From an uncultured Chlorobiota bacterium (GTDB taxonomy: Bacteria; Bacteroidota; Bacteroidia; Bacteroidales; JAADGE01), in assembly GCA_947311445.1 (NCBI GenBank), contig CAMZKV010000017.1, forward strand, positions 1 to 37,743: 37,743 nucleotides of DNA, written 5' to 3'. Below the pieces are notes generated by a model that was given only the letters and a program-made list of their open reading frames with translations, had not been told where the DNA came from and made no database searches. The position numbers and the translations under genes are program-made. Every line of letters starts with the position of its first letter. Position 1 is the stretch's first letter. Below are positions 7,801-15,671 of the stretch, one piece after another.

Positions 7801-10800
7801 TTATTTAAAAACAACAACAGATTTCAGTTTTTCAGAATATTCTTTATCAGTATGCTTTTCGGTTACTGATAATAATAAGTTAATGTCATTTAATAAATCT
7901 GCTTTTTCGGCATAAATTTCTTTTTTAAAGGAATTGTAGTAAATCATTTTTTCGGAATAATCTTTAATTATTACATCTAAGATATTATGAGCCTTTTCTT
8001 TCTGCGCTAGTTTTAAATAATTATCTACTATTCCAGACATTGAACCATCATATGGAACTTTATTTTCGGGAAACATTTCAACTATATAATCTAAAACTTC
8101 AGCTGCTTTATCTTTTTTATTTTCTGAGATTAAAACAGAAGCTAAATTAGCGTATGTTTCCCTAACTCTCATAACTCTAATGTTTCTTAAAATGAAATTA
8201 TCAACAAATACGTCATCTTCTTTTATTCTTCCCCATACAAATTTATTTATTAAATTTTCATACATTATATCTGAGTTCACGTATCCTATTTGCCCATCTG
8301 ATTTATAGGGAACGAGGCGATATGCAAAGCCTTCTAATCTGAAATACTTTTGAAGCCCATAGTAATTTTTAGAAGGAACACTGGTTGCAAAATAAATAGG
8401 ACGCTCCCAATTATTTCGAGCAATTATCTCAAGAACTGCCATATCATTTTTATAAATATACGATTTATTAAGTGTCCATTTAATGTTTCTCTCAAACTTG
8501 CTTAATTCTTTTGCTGTATAACTACCTGAATTAGCAACTTTTGGCCAAGGAACGTATAAAGATAATTTCTTTGATGGCAAATAATTAATTTCATCTCCAT
8601 AGCCTTGTAATTTTGTTTCTTTATTATTGGAAGCAACAAAATCCATTGCATTATTTAGAGGTAAATAATTTTCAGAAATTTTTGTTAGAAATTTTTGGGT
8701 TAATTCTTTCAAATCTTCAACTAAATTTCCATTTATTTTATACTTATTAATAAATTTTGAATTTGATAAATTATTAATTATACCACCAAATTCAGTAGGA
8801 GATATTTTAGATAAGGCATCTATAAGTCCGGAATATTCTTTTTCATTTAAATTGGGATAATTAGAAGAATTAATTATTATCCTTAGTTTTTCTTTAAGAA
8901 AATCAAAATCATTTTTATACTTTATTTTACTTACTTCATATTTTTCATCAATAAAAACCTGAGGATTTTCAGTAACATAAACTGCATCTCTATTTCCTTC
9001 TCTGTAATCATCATGTTTCATTGAAAACGGGATGGGTTTTGCATCATAAGATTTCGTTTTCATTTGGTCTATATACCAATCTGTTCCTAACAGACTTAGG
9101 TTTACTACTTTAATATCTGTTCTAAAACCTTCAACTTCTTGCATATACCATAAAGGAAAAGTGTCATTATCTCCATAAGTAAATAGTATTGCATTTTGCT
9201 CACACGAGTTCAAATAGTTTTTAGCAAAATCAGCGGCTGTATATCTTCCTGATCTATCATGATCGTCCCAATTTTCGGTTGCCAAAATTAAAGGGACTGG
9301 TATTGCAATTATAACGACCAATAATGTTGTTAGTTTTTTTGAAATCTTGTTGCTTAAAAAATGATATGCTGATGCTATTCCGAGACCAATCCATATTGTG
9401 AAAGCATAAAAAGAACCAGCATATGCATAATCTCTTTCGCGTGGTTGGTAAGGTGTTTGGTTTAGATAAACAACAATTGCTATTCCTGTAAAAAAGAATA
9501 ATAAGAATAATATTGAAAAACTTTTTTTATCATTAAGGAAAGTATAAAACAGTCCAAACATTCCTAATAAAAAAGGTAGTAGGTAATAAGTGTTTCTACT
9601 TTTGTCATTTTTAATTTTTTCTGGCAAATCTGCATTAGTACCAATTAACATACTATCTATAAGAGGTATTCCGCTAATCCAATTCCCTTTTGTTGCTCTG
9701 CCATGAGATTGTATATTATTTTGTTTACCTGAGAAATTCCACATAAAATACCTTAAATACATATGGCTTAATTGATACGAAACAAAAAAGTTTATATTAT
9801 TTAAAAAAGTTGGTTTTTCATCTTGACCAAGGCCTCCCCAATTTCTATATGCTTGTATGTGATATTTTTCTCTACTATACATTCTAGGAAACAGAGTTTT
9901 TCTTTTTTTATCAAATTCGTAATCTGGATTGGTTTTTTCAATTTTTAAATATTTTCCATCTTTAGGTATATAAGTATATCGAGGATGAGTTACATATTCT
10001 CCATTATTAGTTTCTAATTCAGCATCAAAATACTGCCCGTATATAAGTGGTCTTTGCCCGTATTGCTCTCTGTTTAAATAAGAAAGCATAGAGAATATAT
10101 TTTCGGGGTTATTTTCGTCCATTGGAGGATTTGCAAGGGATCTAATCATAATTATTGCATATGAAGAATATCCTATAAGAATTACAGTTATTACAGTTAA
10201 TGCAGTATTTAAAACTATTTTCTTGTTTTTAAAAGAATAGTATATTCCGAAAGTGAGCAATCCAAATGTTAAGAAAATGTAGAATAATAATCCGCTGTTA
10301 TAGGGTATTCCAAAACTATTCACAAAAAGCAATTCAAATTTTGATGCCAGTACTACATATCCCTGAATAATTCCATACATTAAAAAGCCTACAAGACCAA
10401 CTGAAATTAGAGCAGAATAAAACAATCCTTTTTTTGATACTTTGTATTTTTTAAAATAAAACACAAAAACAATTGCAGGAATTGCTAAAAGATTTAATAA
10501 ATGCACACCTATTGAGAGCCCCATCATGAAAGCAATAAAAATAAGCCATCTGTTTGAGTATTTTTGCATGGAAACAGATTCCCATTTTAAAATTGCCCAA
10601 AAAACTATGGCTGTAAATAAAGAAGAGCTGGCATAAACTTCAGCTTCAACAGCAGAGAACCAAAAAGTATCTGAGAAAGTATATGCTAATGCCCCTGCAA
10701 GTCCGCTTGCAAAAATTGCAATTGCTTTTGAATTTGTTATTTCTCCGGTTTTTACAATAAGTTTCTTGGCAAAATATGTTATTGTCCAAAAAAGAAAAAG

Positions 10801-11106
10801 AATAGTAAATGCACTTGAAAGAACTGAAACTGAATTAATCATTAATGCAACACTTTCTTTGCTTGGGGCAAATAATGAAAAAACTCTGCCAACCAACATA
10901 AACAATGGAGCACCCGGCGGATGTCCTACTTCAAGTTTATAGCTTGAAGGAATAAACTCTCCGCAGTCCCATAAACTTACTGATGGTTCTACGGTTAAAA
11001 AATAAGTTGTTAGTGCTATTGCAAAAGCAATCCAAGCAAAAATATTATTATAGAGACTGTATTTTTTTGGTGTCATTTTTAAGATTTTGATATTTTTTTT
11101 TGCCAA
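7801..11106 (-). CDS. DUF2723 / GT117-type membrane glycosyltransferase
   Basis: 1101-residue protein. The N-terminal half is a polytopic membrane domain with about 12 or more hydrophobic segments. It opens with LTVEPSVSLWDCGEFIPSSY and LEVGHPPGAPLFMLVGR (about residues 38-75), the acidic-loop signature of the DUF2723 family, which resembles protein O-mannosyltransferase folds. RERDYAYAGSFYAF around 560-575 is a second family stretch. The C-terminal half is a large soluble part with ILFTYGDNDTFPLWY, NNWERPIYFATSVP and TPR-like helices near the end. The family probably transfers sugars from lipid carriers to envelope or secreted proteins, but acceptors are poorly known. An alternative start is Met11 (TPKKYSLYNN). 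It is transcribed away from the accessory cassette on its right and is 64 bases from the carboxyltransferase gene. Confidence 0.88.
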   Translation of the reverse strand: MAKKNIKILKMTPKKYSLYNNIFAWIAFAIALTTYFLTVEPSVSLWDCGEFIPSSYKLEVGHPPGAPLFMLVGRVFSLFAPSKESVALMINSVSVLSSAFTILFLFWTITYFAKKLIVKTGEITNSKAIAIFASGLAGALAYTFSDTFWFSAVEAEVYASSSLFTAIVFWAILKWESVSMQKYSNRWLIFIAFMMGLSIGVHLLNLLAIPAIVFVFYFKKYKVSKKGLFYSALISVGLVGFLMYGIIQGYVVLASKFELLFVNSFGIPYNSGLLFYIFLTFGLLTFGIYYSFKNKKIVLNTALTVITVILIGYSSYAIIMIRSLANPPMDENNPENIFSMLSYLNREQYGQRPLIYGQYFDAELETNNGEYVTHPRYTYIPKDGKYLKIEKTNPDYEFDKKRKTLFPRMYSREKYHIQAYRNWGGLGQDEKPTFLNNINFFVSYQLSHMYLRYFMWNFSGKQNNIQSHGRATKGNWISGIPLIDSMLIGTNADLPEKIKNDKSRNTYYLLPFLLGMFGLFYTFLNDKKSFSILFLLFFFTGIAIVVYLNQTPYQPRERDYAYAGSFYAFTIWIGLGIASAYHFLSNKISKKLTTLLVVIIAIPVPLILATENWDDHDRSGRYTAADFAKNYLNSCEQNAILFTYGDNDTFPLWYMQEVEGFRTDIKVVNLSLLGTDWYIDQMKTKSYDAKPIPFSMKHDDYREGNRDAVYVTENPQVFIDEKYEVSKIKYKNDFDFLKEKLRIIINSSNYPNLNEKEYSGLIDALSKISPTEFGGIINNLSNSKFINKYKINGNLVEDLKELTQKFLTKISENYLPLNNAMDFVASNNKETKLQGYGDEINYLPSKKLSLYVPWPKVANSGSYTAKELSKFERNIKWTLNKSYIYKNDMAVLEIIARNNWERPIYFATSVPSKNYYGLQKYFRLEGFAYRLVPYKSDGQIGYVNSDIMYENLINKFVWGRIKEDDVFVDNFILRNIRVMRVRETYANLASVLISENKKDKAAEVLDYIVEMFPENKVPYDGSMSGIVDNYLKLAQKEKAHNILDVIIKDYSEKMIYYNSFKKEIYAEKADLLNDINLLLSVTEKHTDKEYSEKLKSVVVFK

Positions 11107-11172: not shown

Positions 11173-11460
11173 CTATTTCCTAATAATCATTTCCCTAAGA
11201 AACTTTATTTCTTCTTCAAGACTAGAAATACGTTTATCATACATTGTAACTAGCTTATCAGATATATAATTGTTAAAAGTATGATACTTCCCAGATTGTG
11301 GGCTATTATTAAAAACCATGCTATCATTAAAATTAATTAAATCAACAGGTTCAATTTCTAATATTTTTGAAATTATAGCAATTCTATCCCAATCTAATTT
11401 TGTTTCATTACGTTCAATTTTACTATATGCTCTTTGAGAAATTTCTAAAACATTCGCCAT
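11173..11460 (-). CDS. XRE-family regulator, readable part of an interrupted gene
   Basis: Small helix-turn-helix protein. From the ATG at 11460 it has 95 residues: helix-turn-helix residues with SQRAYSKIERNETKLDWDRI, a bridging segment (EIEPVDLINF), then a C-terminal amphipathic coiled coil around RISSLEEEIKFLREMI. This start would lose the first helix and half of the second. Upstream in the same frame the missing part (EKIRELKGFTQDY) is intact and preceded by an ATG at 11511, but codon 4 is TGA. As read, the gene therefore makes either a truncated product or none. It lies divergently from the lipoprotein/ABC cassette (200 bases between the 11460 start and the lipoprotein start), so it is the likely cassette regulator. 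Confidence 0.7.
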   Translation of the reverse strand: MANVLEISQRAYSKIERNETKLDWDRIAIISKILEIEPVDLINFNDSMVFNNSPQSGKYHTFNNYISDKLVTMYDKRISSLEEEIKFLREMIIRK

Positions 11461-11511
11461 ATAATCCTGTGTAAAACCTTTTAACTCTCTAATTTTTTCT
11501 CAAATTTTCAT
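11461..11511 (-). pseudogene. Separated N-terminal codons of the XRE regulator with in-frame TGA
   Basis: On the minus strand the expected start ATG (11511-11509) is followed by AAA, ATT, then TGA (11502-11500), then GAA AAA ATT AGA GAG TTA AAA and onward in frame into the gene. The residues after the stop are a typical first XRE helix. A promoter with good spacing starts transcription upstream of this ATG, so 11511 is the natural start. One base change (for example AGA or CGA to TGA) or a sequencing error would explain it. TGA is an ordinary stop elsewhere in the cassette (12993-12995). Confidence 0.7.
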
Positions 11512-11534
11512 AACAGATAGTATTAATTTAGAAC

Positions 11535-11566
11535 CAAAAGTATGCTATTTAGAACTTTAAAACAAA
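11535..11566 (-). promoter_or_regulatory. Promoter of the XRE regulator gene
   Basis: On the minus strand, TTTG (11566-11563), 20 bases, then TACTTTTG (11542-11535). Both boxes match the Bacteroidota consensus. The predicted start near 11529 leaves a leader of roughly 18 bases before the ATG at 11511. Confidence 0.6.
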
Positions 11567-11660
11567 CAAAATTAAAATTTATTTGTTTTTATTTGCAAAC
11601 TGAAAATTGTGCACAAGTTTTCATGTAAATATTTATTTTTAACTTTAAAAACAAATTAAA

Positions 11661-12290
11661 ATGAAAAAATTATTTAGTTTTGCAATGATATTAGCAATTT
11701 TAATATCTTTTATTGGATGTAATGAGAACACAAAAGTTACAGATGAAGCAATTGAACATAATTGTTTGAATGATAATAACATTAAAAGTATTTCTGCAAT
11801 ACAAAACAGTTTATTAGTTTCTGTTAAAAACAATTTTAACGCAAATAAAAACTTAAATGAAGTTGATTTTGATAATGCACAAGTTGTCGAGTATACTAGT
11901 GTTGATATAAAAGGAATTATTGCTGATTTTAAAGAAAATAGTAATAAAACATTTGTTGCATACTATGATGAAGATGATAATTATTATGGGGTAGACTTTA
12001 TTCTGGAAACGTCAGAAAATAACGGTATTAGAACTACAATAATGTCAAATAATAGTGAAATACAACAATTAAGAGTAAAAGCTAATATTGAAACAAATAA
12101 AATTATAGAAGTGCAATTATTAAACCCTGACAAAGATTATAGCGCGTTTGCTGCTTGTGTTGGCTATGCCTGGTCTGCTTGCATGGATGATCCTGGATGC
12201 CGAGCAATATGTTTGGCTACTTTCCCAGCTTGTTGGAGTGCAATTGTAGCTGGATGTGCTGTTTCTCCAATAGCACCTTCTGAACATTAG
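11661..12290 (+). CDS. Lipoprotein with six-cysteine C-terminal peptide, putative bacteriocin-like precursor
   Basis: 209 residues; I do not recognise a named family with confidence. Residues 1-19 form a signal peptide ending in ISFIG|C, so Cys20 is a lipidation site. Residues 21-160 are a hydrophilic, Asn/Glu-rich region with beta-strand-like stretches (TFVAYYDEDDNYYGVDFIL). Residues about 161-209 change character. They are small, hydrophobic and Cys-rich, with Cys166, 174, 180, 184, 191 and 199 set among Ala, Trp and Gly. Such a pro-region plus Cys-rich tail recalls precursors of disulfide-bonded bacteriocins (fulvocin C-related or halocin C8-like proteins are comparisons, not matches I can prove). 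The ABC ATPase gene starts 18 bases downstream, and the last gene of the operon is a thioredoxin-like protein. A weak promoter candidate is TTTG at 11592-11595, 19 bases, then AAGTTTTC at 11615-11622. Confidence 0.75.
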   Translation: MKKLFSFAMILAILISFIGCNENTKVTDEAIEHNCLNDNNIKSISAIQNSLLVSVKNNFNANKNLNEVDFDNAQVVEYTSVDIKGIIADFKENSNKTFVAYYDEDDNYYGVDFILETSENNGIRTTIMSNNSEIQQLRVKANIETNKIIEVQLLNPDKDYSAFAACVGYAWSACMDDPGCRAICLATFPACWSAIVAGCAVSPIAPSEH

Positions 12291-12308
12291 TTTAAATATA
12301 TTTTTATA

Positions 12309-12995
12309 ATGATATTATTAAAAAATATTACAAAAAAATACAAGTCTAAAAAAGCATTAAAAAATTTTAACCTTGAAGTAAAGAAAGGTGAAGTTCATGC
12401 TTTAATAGGACCAAATGGCAGTGGTAAATCCACTGCCATTGGCATTATTTTATCTTTGTTAAATTACGATGGAATTGCACAAGTAGGGGTTGAACAAATA
12501 AAAATAGGTGTTAGTTTAGAAAATGACTTATTCTTTGAAAGATTATCGGCTTATGATAATTTAAAATTTTCTGCAATATCTAAAAGTATCCCAGCACAAG
12601 ATATTGATAGAGTTGTTGAAATGTTATATCTTGAAAGTGAAATTAACAATAAAGTAAAGACTCTTTCGAAAGGAAATCGCAGAAAAGTTTCTTTGGCTTC
12701 TGCTTTACTTGGCAATTCTGAATTATATATTTTTGACGAACCTCTTTCCGGTCTTGACCATGACAATATAGTTCTTTTTAGAAAACTAATTATTAAATTA
12801 AAAGAACAAGGGAAAACAATTTTAATTAGTAGCCACATTTTATCTGAGATTGAAAAAATGTGTACTAACTTTACATTTATTTATAGAGGGCAGATGCGAG
12901 AAAGTTTTAGTTCAAAAAAATTGTTTGAAAAATACGCATCATTAGAAGTTGCATATGATAAAATAATACCAAAAAGTATCAAATTCCAAATATGA
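12309..12995 (+). CDS. ABC transporter ATP-binding protein
   Basis: 228-residue cytoplasmic ATPase. Walker A is GPNGSGKST at 34-42, the signature loop is LSKGN at 119-123 (a variant of LSGGQ), Walker B is LYIFDEPLSGLD at 139-150, and the switch histidine lies in SSHILSE at 174-180. The region between the P-loop and the signature is short (MLYLESEINNKVKTLSKGN), as in BcrA/CcmA-type exporters with a separate ABC-2 permease. Its TGA stop overlaps the ATG of the permease by four bases (ATGA), so the two are translationally coupled and form one transporter. The context suggests export of, or self-protection against, the upstream Cys-rich peptide; this is inference. Confidence 0.9.
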   Translation: MILLKNITKKYKSKKALKNFNLEVKKGEVHALIGPNGSGKSTAIGIILSLLNYDGIAQVGVEQIKIGVSLENDLFFERLSAYDNLKFSAISKSIPAQDIDRVVEMLYLESEINNKVKTLSKGNRRKVSLASALLGNSELYIFDEPLSGLDHDNIVLFRKLIIKLKEQGKTILISSHILSEIEKMCTNFTFIYRGQMRESFSSKKLFEKYASLEVAYDKIIPKSIKFQI

Positions 12996-13726
12996 AATAC
13001 TCTGATTTAATAAAACTTGAAATTATAAAAGCCAAAAGTATGAGAATGCTTTTAATTTTATTACTGTATTTTATTATAAGTACTTCATTTTTTTATTTTA
13101 TGGGTGCTGCAATGCGTGATATTAAAACTATTTCTCTGAGTGATAATTCTTTTATTGAGCAAAATTATTTAAGTGCAGTATCATTTTTTTTTGTTGTTTT
13201 AATTATTAATATCGGTATTGATTATAAAAAAATATATGCAAGCCAAATTGTTTCCGGTATTAGTAAAAATAATTTTATTATTGGAAAATTTTTGTTTATA
13301 ATATTATTTGCTTTTGCTGTAGTTTGTGTGGAATTAGTAAAATTTTTTATAATTCAATTCTTTCTTTTTAACCAATTTAACATTGATATTGAAGTTTTAT
13401 ATAAGTTGTCTTTTGTATTTTTTCTTCTTTTATTAATTATAGGTTCTTATGCGTTTGTTATTGTAACAATAATAAAAAAAACTATTATTTCAATTGTTGT
13501 TTTTTATATTTTAACTAAGATAGAGGAGGTCATTAATATTTACCAAAGTTTTTATAACAAATTTCCCTTCATAGATTATTTACCATACACTCTCACAACA
13601 AATTTAATTAAAAACACAATTTTAAATGTTGAACATTTTTTTATATTAATGACTTATTTCTTTGCTTCAATATTTTTTATCAGTTATACTCTAAATAAAA
13701 ATGAAATAAAACTTAATAATGACTAG
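12992..13726 (+). CDS. ABC-2-like permease
   Basis: 244-residue, highly hydrophobic protein with about six predicted membrane helices: near 17-37, 62-80, 95-125, 130-155, 158-178 and 213-233. There is no large periplasmic or ATPase domain, which fits the membrane half of a BcrA/BcrB- or NatA/NatB-like exporter. A conserved sequence motif is hard to see, as usual for this group; the assignment rests on topology and coupling. It overlaps the ATPase by four bases upstream and the thioredoxin-like gene by eight bases downstream. Base composition is very AT-rich, even for this window. Confidence 0.75.
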   Translation: MKYSDLIKLEIIKAKSMRMLLILLLYFIISTSFFYFMGAAMRDIKTISLSDNSFIEQNYLSAVSFFFVVLIINIGIDYKKIYASQIVSGISKNNFIIGKFLFIILFAFAVVCVELVKFFIIQFFLFNQFNIDIEVLYKLSFVFFLLLLIIGSYAFVIVTIIKKTIISIVVFYILTKIEEVINIYQSFYNKFPFIDYLPYTLTTNLIKNTILNVEHFFILMTYFFASIFFISYTLNKNEIKLNND

Positions 13727-14255
13727 ATTTGTAAAACTTTTAATATTTCCTTTTTTGTTTGCTGCATTAATTTTTTATTTTAATCAAAAAATTACATTAT
13801 CAATTCTACAAAAAAATGCAAAGCAAATTAAGGAAATAAATGTATTTAATAAATTAAAATCAGGTAATATAATTATTAAAAATAAACATATCTTTAATAA
13901 AGATACAGTGTATGTTATTAATTTATGGGGAGCAAGATGTAAACCCTGTATTAAAGAAATGCCTGAACTAAATAAGTTATACGATAAACACAAGCAAAAA
14001 CCTGTTAGATTTATTGCTTTAAGCAGATATAATGACGATTCTATTAAATTTTCAAAATTAAATATTGACTTTAAATTTAATAAATATTACCATGAAGGAA
14101 ACCTCTTTGATTATTTTCAAAACTTAAACCTTTCAAAAAACAAAGTTATACCTGTTACAATTCTTATTAATAAAGAGGGAACTATTGAATATTATTTAAA
14201 AGGAGCAAATGAAAATAATATAAAATTTTTGGATAATTATTTATCGAACATATAG
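13719..14255 (+). CDS. Membrane-anchored thioredoxin-like protein (TlpA/ResA type)
   Basis: 178 residues. A hydrophobic segment at about 5-21 anchors it in the inner membrane with the rest in the periplasm. The thioredoxin fold follows: VYVINLWGARCKPCIKEMPEL holds the redox pair Cys74-Lys-Pro-Cys77, and VIPVTIL has the expected cis-proline. The family reduces or rearranges disulfides outside the cytoplasm. As the last gene of an operon whose first product carries a six-cysteine tail, it may shape or reduce the disulfides of that peptide; this is inference. It overlaps the permease gene by eight bases. Its TAG stop abuts the convergent sugar-transferase stop with no base between (TAGCTA at 14253-14258). 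Confidence 0.85.
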   Translation: MTRFVKLLIFPFLFAALIFYFNQKITLSILQKNAKQIKEINVFNKLKSGNIIIKNKHIFNKDTVYVINLWGARCKPCIKEMPELNKLYDKHKQKPVRFIALSRYNDDSIKFSKLNIDFKFNKYYHEGNLFDYFQNLNLSKNKVIPVTILINKEGTIEYYLKGANENNIKFLDNYLSNI

Positions 14256-15671
14256 CTATTTCCCATCTCTCTTTAAAACAACCAAAACTGTGTGGATTAA
14301 TATTTTAAAATCAAGATAGAGAGTCATGTTTTCAATATAAAAAATATCGTAATTCAATCTTTCAATCATCTCATCAATATTTTCGGCATAGCCGTATTTT
14401 ACTTGTCCCCACGAAGTTATACCGGGCTTCACTTTCAAAAGCCTTAAATAATGTGGGGCTCTTTTAACAATTTTGTCTATAAAAAATTGTCTTTCCGGTC
14501 TTGGTCCAACTAGTGACATATCTCCTTTTAATACATTAATGAATTGCGGAATTTCATCTAAACGAGTTTTTCGCATAAATCTTCCAAATTTTGTTATTCT
14601 GTTGTCAGAAACAGAAGATAATTGAGGTCCATTTCTTTCGGCATTGGTGTACATAGAGCGGAATTTTATAATTTTAAAAGGTTTTCCGTCTAAGCCTATT
14701 CGTTCTTGCACAAAAAACACAGGACCTTTTGAAGAAAATTTCACTCCTAATGCAGCAAAAATATATAATGGGGATAATAAAATTAATGAAAAAAAAGATG
14801 CTACAAAATCAAACACTCTTTTAAAAGATTCTTGCCAAGCTGGCATTAAATTATGAGAAATAATTATTAAAGGTGTCCCGAGAAAACTTGACATTCTAAC
14901 TCTTCCTGTAAGAATTTTAAACATACCGGGAATAACTTTTGTTATTACATTTACACCTTGAAGTTTATAAATAATTTTTTCTATTTCTTTGTGTTCAGAA
15001 GATTCAATTGCAATAATAACTTCTTCAATTTTTTCTTTTTTAATAATATTTTCAACATCATCTAAATCTCCAAGATGTTTTAGATGTTTACTTAAAACTG
15101 CATCCTTTTTATTAAAAATATTAATAAAACCAATAAATTTATAACCGTACTTTTCTTCTTGGGATGTTAATTGATGATATAGTTTTAATGCTTTTCCGTT
15201 ACTTCCTATTAATAAAGTATTAAATCCTATTTTACCTAATTCAATTCTTTTTGCGGTAATACTTGTAATAGTAAGCCTAGGAATATAGGTTAAAATAAAA
15301 TGTGCAATAAACAAGGCACCGGCAGATAAATAATAATCTTTGTATGAAAAAACAGTATCGTCAAGAATTAAAATAAAGAATATTATAATAACTCCTATAA
15401 CAGTGCTTATAAAAGTTTGCCCAAGTTCTTGCAATCTAGATTTTCGGTATATATTAGAATAATATCCAAAAGCAGAGTATATCATCAACCAAAATAATGG
15501 AAGACCAAATAAGGCAATAAAAAAACTTGTATTATAATCAATCTCAATATGAATTCCGTAGTTTATTGATTCAATATATTCTTTACGAAATAAATTAAAC
15601 AAGAACCAAGCTAATGCAGCAGCTAGATAGTCTGAGAAAAGATATTTTAAGACTTGCAGTTTTTTATTCAT
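14256..15671 (-). CDS. Polyprenyl-phosphate hexose-1-phosphate transferase (WcaJ-like)
   Basis: 471 residues. The N-terminal part has about four membrane helices, then a cytoplasmic Rossmann-like region (FNTLLIGSNGKALKLYHQL). A further hydrophobic hairpin near 285-310 leads into the bacterial sugar-transferase domain. There, FKIIKFRSM and DEIPQFINVLKGDMSLVGPRPE contain the Asp-Glu catalytic pair, and KPGITSWGQVKYGYAEN follows. The family transfers glucose-1-P or galactose-1-P from a UDP-sugar to undecaprenyl phosphate, the first step of exopolysaccharide or O-unit assembly. No other polysaccharide cluster genes are adjacent except a GT2 gene about 1.2 kb away, so this is an isolated initiating transferase. 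The sugar cannot be read from the sequence. Confidence 0.9.
   Translation of the reverse strand: MNKKLQVLKYLFSDYLAAALAWFLFNLFRKEYIESINYGIHIEIDYNTSFFIALFGLPLFWLMIYSAFGYYSNIYRKSRLQELGQTFISTVIGVIIIFFILILDDTVFSYKDYYLSAGALFIAHFILTYIPRLTITSITAKRIELGKIGFNTLLIGSNGKALKLYHQLTSQEEKYGYKFIGFINIFNKKDAVLSKHLKHLGDLDDVENIIKKEKIEEVIIAIESSEHKEIEKIIYKLQGVNVITKVIPGMFKILTGRVRMSSFLGTPLIIISHNLMPAWQESFKRVFDFVASFFSLILLSPLYIFAALGVKFSSKGPVFFVQERIGLDGKPFKIIKFRSMYTNAERNGPQLSSVSDNRITKFGRFMRKTRLDEIPQFINVLKGDMSLVGPRPERQFFIDKIVKRAPHYLRLLKVKPGITSWGQVKYGYAENIDEMIERLNYDIFYIENMTLYLDFKILIHTVLVVLKRDGK

Follow-up and report, generated by a model that had tools for sequence, protein, structure and literature searches.

What does a lipoprotein gene with a cysteine-rich end do beside genes for an ABC ATPase, a permease and a TlpA-like thiol-disulfide protein? 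This arrangement occurs in an uncultured Bacteroidota bacterium, on a 37,743-nucleotide stretch of DNA that was analysed whole and is called the window here. A preliminary description had read the genes as a possible bacteriocin-like system. That reading is upheld as the best of several, at about even odds (a probability of roughly 0.5): the lipoprotein would be a bacteriocin-like precursor with swappable immunity, carried in a module that was gained horizontally and recently. The reading frames and their overlaps (4 bases between ATPase and permease, 8 bases between permease and TlpA-like gene) lie where they were first placed.

The precursor lipoprotein (11661-12290, plus strand) has 209 residues, which divide into: a signal peptide with a lipobox ending in FIGC, the lipid-bearing residue being Cys20; a middle domain; and a six-cysteine tail. 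Neither Pfam nor NCBIfam contains a family that matches it, in line with the earlier description, which could not name an existing family with confidence. The model of the whole precursor is poor (mean pLDDT 61.7), and a fold search with this model (pLDDT 62) gave a weak best match to DUF2874-type Bacteroides proteins (Z 7.1, rmsd 4.2, 123 residues aligned). A weak PepSY match in one relative, G052 (E 0.006), accords with this, and the modelling suggests a weak resemblance of the middle domain to PepSY/DUF2874 proteins. No site of cleavage can be recognised in the precursor, and neither a conserved double-glycine leader nor a dedicated protease is apparent. It is not a double-glycine-leader (class II) bacteriocin, as it has a lipoprotein signal in place of that leader. 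In Bacteroidetes, the surface-export (LES) signal is K-(D/E)2, Q-A-(D/E)2 or S-D-D-x-x directly after the lipidated cysteine (PMC5080379). Residues like these are clear in the relative G165 (C-SDDTT), near in L095 (C-QDDK) and in G052 and L099 (C-NDE), and weak in the window precursor (C-NENTK).

The tail (residues 161-209; 12141-12287, plus strand) places its cysteines at 166, 174, 180, 184, 191 and 199, all within the last 44 residues of the precursor. Their spacing, C-x7-C-x5-C-x3-C-x6-C-x7-C, is identical in nine of the ten relatives outside this genome, the tenth having a single longer gap. A profile of nine tails built without the window recovers the window protein at E 6e-8, and the next of the 491 window ORFs follows at E 0.12. 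The same spacing at nine other loci and this leave-one-out match take the six-cysteine tail beyond chance, and the original description of a lipoprotein ending in a separate six-cysteine domain is confirmed by them. The tail is also the part that is retained most strictly. Between G052 and L099, identity is 83% in the tail, 60% in the middle domain and 44% in the signal, with pN 0.12 and pS 0.73 for the tail, and in each of the ten pairs compared the tail has diverged less than the middle domain. These comparisons indicate that the tail is under purifying selection. When the last 50 residues are modelled together with the other tails, three helices result (mean pLDDT 84.4), which predicts an autonomous three-helix domain able to fold by itself. 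Foldseek returned no chain for the tail model, a result uninformative on fold novelty. Among solved structures, sequence comparison gave a single weak match, 14 residues of a knottin-type chain at E 0.036, judged to be chance.

How widespread is this precursor? The first full-length relative, G052 (23% identity), came from a search of 99 related genomes, and two more, G165 and G314, belong to the same order; tail spacing is exact in all three. A convincing match is present in 4 of 393 genomes of the order and in none of 13 sister species. A DNA-pattern scan of 84,980 genomes, in which the cysteine spacing was combined with one Ala and one Asp/Glu, yielded 47 stretches. Eight of them are ORFs from Bacteroidota that end in the motif: G165 and G052 again, and six new members (L072, L074, L083, L094, L095 and L099). 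The others appear to be chance matches or planctomycete-type cysteine repeats. Although the pattern permitted Asp or Glu, every member carries Asp. A further member, G949, lies outside the class and has a Cys4-Cys5 gap of 9; it emerged when 395 genomes of the phylum were searched with a profile. Other searches gave nothing further: a first, protein-based contig scan of genomes produced 53 pattern matches, none confirmed; a plain TGY-spacing DNA pattern, applied to 395 genomes, was swamped by CTG/TTG repeats; plasmids held no match to the full protein and eight weak matches to the tail, which at E 2 to 10 were taken as chance; and viral contigs held only low-complexity cysteine ORFs. The precursor family is real and rare, and the curated libraries searched here hold no description of it.

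Some copies of the family look decayed: at L083 (5899-6531) and L102 (940-1665), a single in-frame stop (TAA and TAG, respectively) lies between lipobox and tail, the tail being otherwise intact. At L074 (1478-2066, minus strand), the precursor frame changes just ahead of the tail, and the signal peptide has no visible lipobox cysteine. Given coverage of about 3x, this frame change is likely a sequencing error.

The relatives also reveal which neighbours are constant. In all ten, a protein of 53-81 residues with two membrane spans is encoded directly downstream of the precursor (at G314 next but one, a thioredoxin gene lying between). This partner is PLDc_N-like at seven loci: the score exceeds the PLDc_N (PF13396) gathering cut-off of 23.3 bits at G314 (24.7 bits) and L074 (46.3 bits), and is under it at G052, G165, L094, L095 and L099. 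At L083, L110 and L102 there is no PLDc_N match, and the partners are different small two-span proteins. No PLDc_N match falls within the window cassette, and the whole source genome contains one. ABC genes stand beside the precursor in the window only, in none of the ten relatives, and a TlpA-like gene is found in two of them: near L074, and at G314, where it separates the precursor gene from that of the two-span protein. The idea that ABC and thioredoxin genes would be the defining neighbours is therefore not borne out. Instead, the constant pair is the precursor and a small two-span membrane protein, and in the window the slot of the second is held by the ABC ATPase, the permease and the TlpA-like protein. 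The gene set as first proposed is refuted by the homologues without ABC and thioredoxin genes, an outcome named beforehand as refuting; yet every relative keeps the tail, and a different partner, the small two-span protein, recurs in all ten. Peptide toxins and their immunity are commonly encoded in this way, with a bacteriocin-like gene first and one for a small membrane protein after it. Our literature search on immunity by PLDc_N proteins found nothing usable. In L020, L095 and L099, the pair occupies one common site next to a sigma-54-type response regulator, and there it looks vertically inherited, not mobile.

What, then, do the ABC genes contribute in this genome? The ATPase (12309-12995, plus strand; 228 residues) has ABC_tran as its sole Pfam domain (E 9e-22), with no C39 peptidase domain. 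Its best NCBIfam model is TIGR03740, for lantibiotic-protection ABC proteins, which leads 191 models at 143 bits and lies under its curated cut-off of 309.75 bits, short of membership in the LanF family. Glu71 replaces the Q-loop glutamine, S-L-E71-N-D aligning to C-P-Q-x-D of ABCA proteins. Glutamate at this position (the E-loop) is a feature of LanF and BcrA proteins; a literature search on the E-loop found nothing usable. PADLOC matches of the ATPase were set aside as generic ATPase matches. The permease that partners it (12992-13726, plus strand) has six hydrophobic segments and no match in Pfam, NCBIfam, PHROGs or PDB sequences. Within the ATPase gene, a perfect 11-bp hairpin with a T-rich tail (12414-12440, plus strand; z -3.7 for 12395-12460) covers the Walker A codons, and could curb read-through into the ABC genes from the precursor gene.

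Immunity through an ABC ATPase and a permease is known for lantibiotics (LanFEG), bacitracin (BcrAB) and AS-48 (PMC4239024). The preliminary description allowed the ABC pair either to export the tail or to give immunity. Export is rejected, as a Sec/SPII signal is built into the precursor and the relatives lack ABC genes; immunity is kept in the best explanation, the lipoprotein signal making it the more plausible role of the pair. The same gene set supports the strongest rival, in which the cassette serves resistance only. Here, the cell would be defended against peptides from other producers: the lipoprotein would act as a scavenger or decoy of the LanI type, the ABC pair as a pump resembling LanFEG/BcrAB, and the tail as the peptide-binding or mimic part. 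We regard this as unlikely. A lipoprotein with an ABC ATPase and permease does reproduce the LanI plus LanFEG layout (PMC4239024), and the ATPase has lantibiotic protection as its best model. This account fits the window, but not the ten relatives, which have only the two-span protein by the precursor. In addition, the most conserved part of the lipoprotein is a compact terminal cysteine domain, whereas the binding surface of a scavenger might be expected to diverge.

The TlpA/ResA-like protein (13719-14255, plus strand; Redoxin E 3e-10; CKPC) is probably membrane anchored, and similar proteins are encoded at L074 and G314. Proteins of the TlpA and ResA type usually act as reductants. This raises the prospect of a fixed envelope lipoprotein whose cysteines bind metal or sense redox state, with TlpA keeping them reduced and the ABC pair moving a metal or cofactor. 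Such neighbours at 3 of 11 loci speak for a redox or metal role, which we nevertheless consider quite improbable: a screen for the CxxC motif found no TlpA-like gene at the remaining eight loci; neither His nor Met is conserved beside the tail cysteines; the tail is a hydrophobic helical domain; and the two-span partner is left unexplained. By eye, genes just upstream of the G949 precursor (L103 3528-6449, plus strand) look like those of a peroxiredoxin-like protein and of a thiol transporter of the DsbD type, so that thiol-redox genes recur at G949 in another form.

The XRE-like gene divergent from the precursor (listed as 11173-11460, minus strand; HTH_3 E 5e-4) had been described correctly, but its reading frame is interrupted close to the start. 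The frame reads ATG AAA ATT TGA at 11511-11500, with the in-frame TGA at 11502-11500, three codons after the upstream ATG, and the rest of the HTH is intact. The full HTH needs the stretch up to 11511, and the listed ORF lacks its first part. A divergent relative of this gene is present at L074 (55% over 33 residues), where an in-frame ATG for the full HTH is likewise missing. If the tail were a signalling peptide, it would be released and read by this regulator or by a membrane sensor. The divergent placement in the window and at L074 suits such a role, but we think it very unlikely, since none of the other loci examined showed an XRE gene next to the precursor, the window frame holds the in-frame TGA, and a 49-residue six-cysteine domain is large for such a signal.

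Under the bacteriocin-like reading, the cassette probably makes a membrane-tethered, disulfide-stapled mini-protein that is used against other bacteria, plus a protective pump. As judged from sequence, the steps would be: export of the lipoprotein through Sec/SPII as a pro-protein that its lipid keeps in the envelope, perhaps at the cell surface, with the middle domain acting as a pro-domain; attack on the membranes of rival bacteria, either on contact or once proteolysis has freed the active part, by the C-terminal 47-49 residues, a three-helix mini-domain that is hydrophobic, roughly neutral to acidic and held together by three disulfides; and self-protection by an exchangeable membrane partner. 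In the relatives this partner would be the two-span PLDc_N-like or similar small protein, and in this genome a BcrAB/LanFEG-like ABC ATPase and permease may clear the peptide from the membrane, with the TlpA-like protein as an optional thiol partner. The analysis shows the family, its cysteine pattern, the partner gene and the insertion; from these we infer the disulfides, cleavage, killing and immunity of this tail system. Several observations weigh against it: no cleavage site, leader or protease of its own is recognisable; the net charge of the tail across the family is -5 to +1, mostly not cationic; the ABC pair occurs only here; the TIGR03740 score is far under its cut-off; some copies look decayed; and the regulator frame is broken.

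How does this compare with known systems? Halocin C8 is, like the window tail, a cysteine-rich hydrophobic peptide. Nonetheless, a relation to it, raised by the preliminary description, found no support: TIGR04449 has no match to the precursor or to three relatives (NCBIfam, E up to 10, HMMER filters applied) or to this genome, and its two sub-cut-off matches in 149 genomes of the class have stops inside and were judged noise. The halocin precursor, ProC8, resembles the window protein in joining a large N-terminal domain to a C-terminal peptide, and in its export by a signal peptide (Tat) with no dedicated exporter (PMC11509114). It differs in being archaeal, in not being a lipoprotein and in holding its immunity in the N-terminal part of its own precursor. 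For fulvocin C, with the relation judged through NCBIfam and Pfam models alone, the precursor has no match, and a literature search gave no usable source. The Cdz system of Caulobacter (CdzC/CdzD, CdzI) is Gram-negative; it keeps its small toxins on the producer surface, and the producer is protected by a small membrane protein (PMC5380434). Cdz differs by type I secretion, glycine zippers, two peptides and the lack of a lipid anchor. With LanFEG/BcrAB, the window shares an ATPase and ABC-2-like permease beside a peptide gene, the best-scoring model and the Q-loop glutamate; it differs in a score far under the family cut-off, a single permease and a cassette with no lanthionine enzymes. Myxococcus SitA is a lipid-anchored toxin with an adjacent immunity gene, but is transferred by outer membrane exchange. 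Bacteroidetocins (class IIa-like) are antibacterial peptides of the same phylum, but are short double-glycine-leader peptides with one disulfide; a leader of their type is absent from the window precursor. Peptide weapons described from Bacteroidota are few, and we know of no case among them in which the C-terminal end of a lipoprotein is itself the peptide.

The remaining question is how the genes came to be here. Comparison with sister genomes supports the earlier view that they form one cassette, but moves its limits from 11661-14255 to 11181-14256, with the XRE gene included. This insertion of 3,076 bp separates a DUF2723-type gene, named by eye (7801-11106, minus strand), from a sugar transferase gene (14256-15671, minus strand). 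In all ten sister genomes showing both, these flanking genes are adjacent, 11-97 bases apart. The closest, G004 (L129), has about 95% DNA identity up to 11180 and from 14257, and the 3,076 bases between are absent there. A direct repeat, TATTTCC, flanks the insert, its left copy at 11174-11180 (8 bp, CTATTTCC, within the window) and its right copy at 14257-14263. G+C is 24% in the insert and 29% in the rest of the window; no transposase or integrase was seen among the insert ORFs. Gain of the cassette as one block in this lineage is the simplest reading of these sequences.

More tentatively, and with somewhat less than even confidence, the locus may represent a new antibacterial class in Bacteroidota: a lipid-anchored pro-protein with a C-terminal three-disulfide, three-helix killing domain, able to move as a regulator-to-immunity cassette whose immunity part is exchanged from species to species, being either the two-span protein or an ABC pump. 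If so, the cysteine spacing and adjoining two-span protein would be a searchable signature for an undescribed antibacterial family, and a locus where an ABC pump replaces small-membrane-protein immunity would make the immunity mechanism testable by swapping. At the left border of the insertion, the DUF2723-type gene has a second copy (G000:C79) in nearly every genome of the genus.
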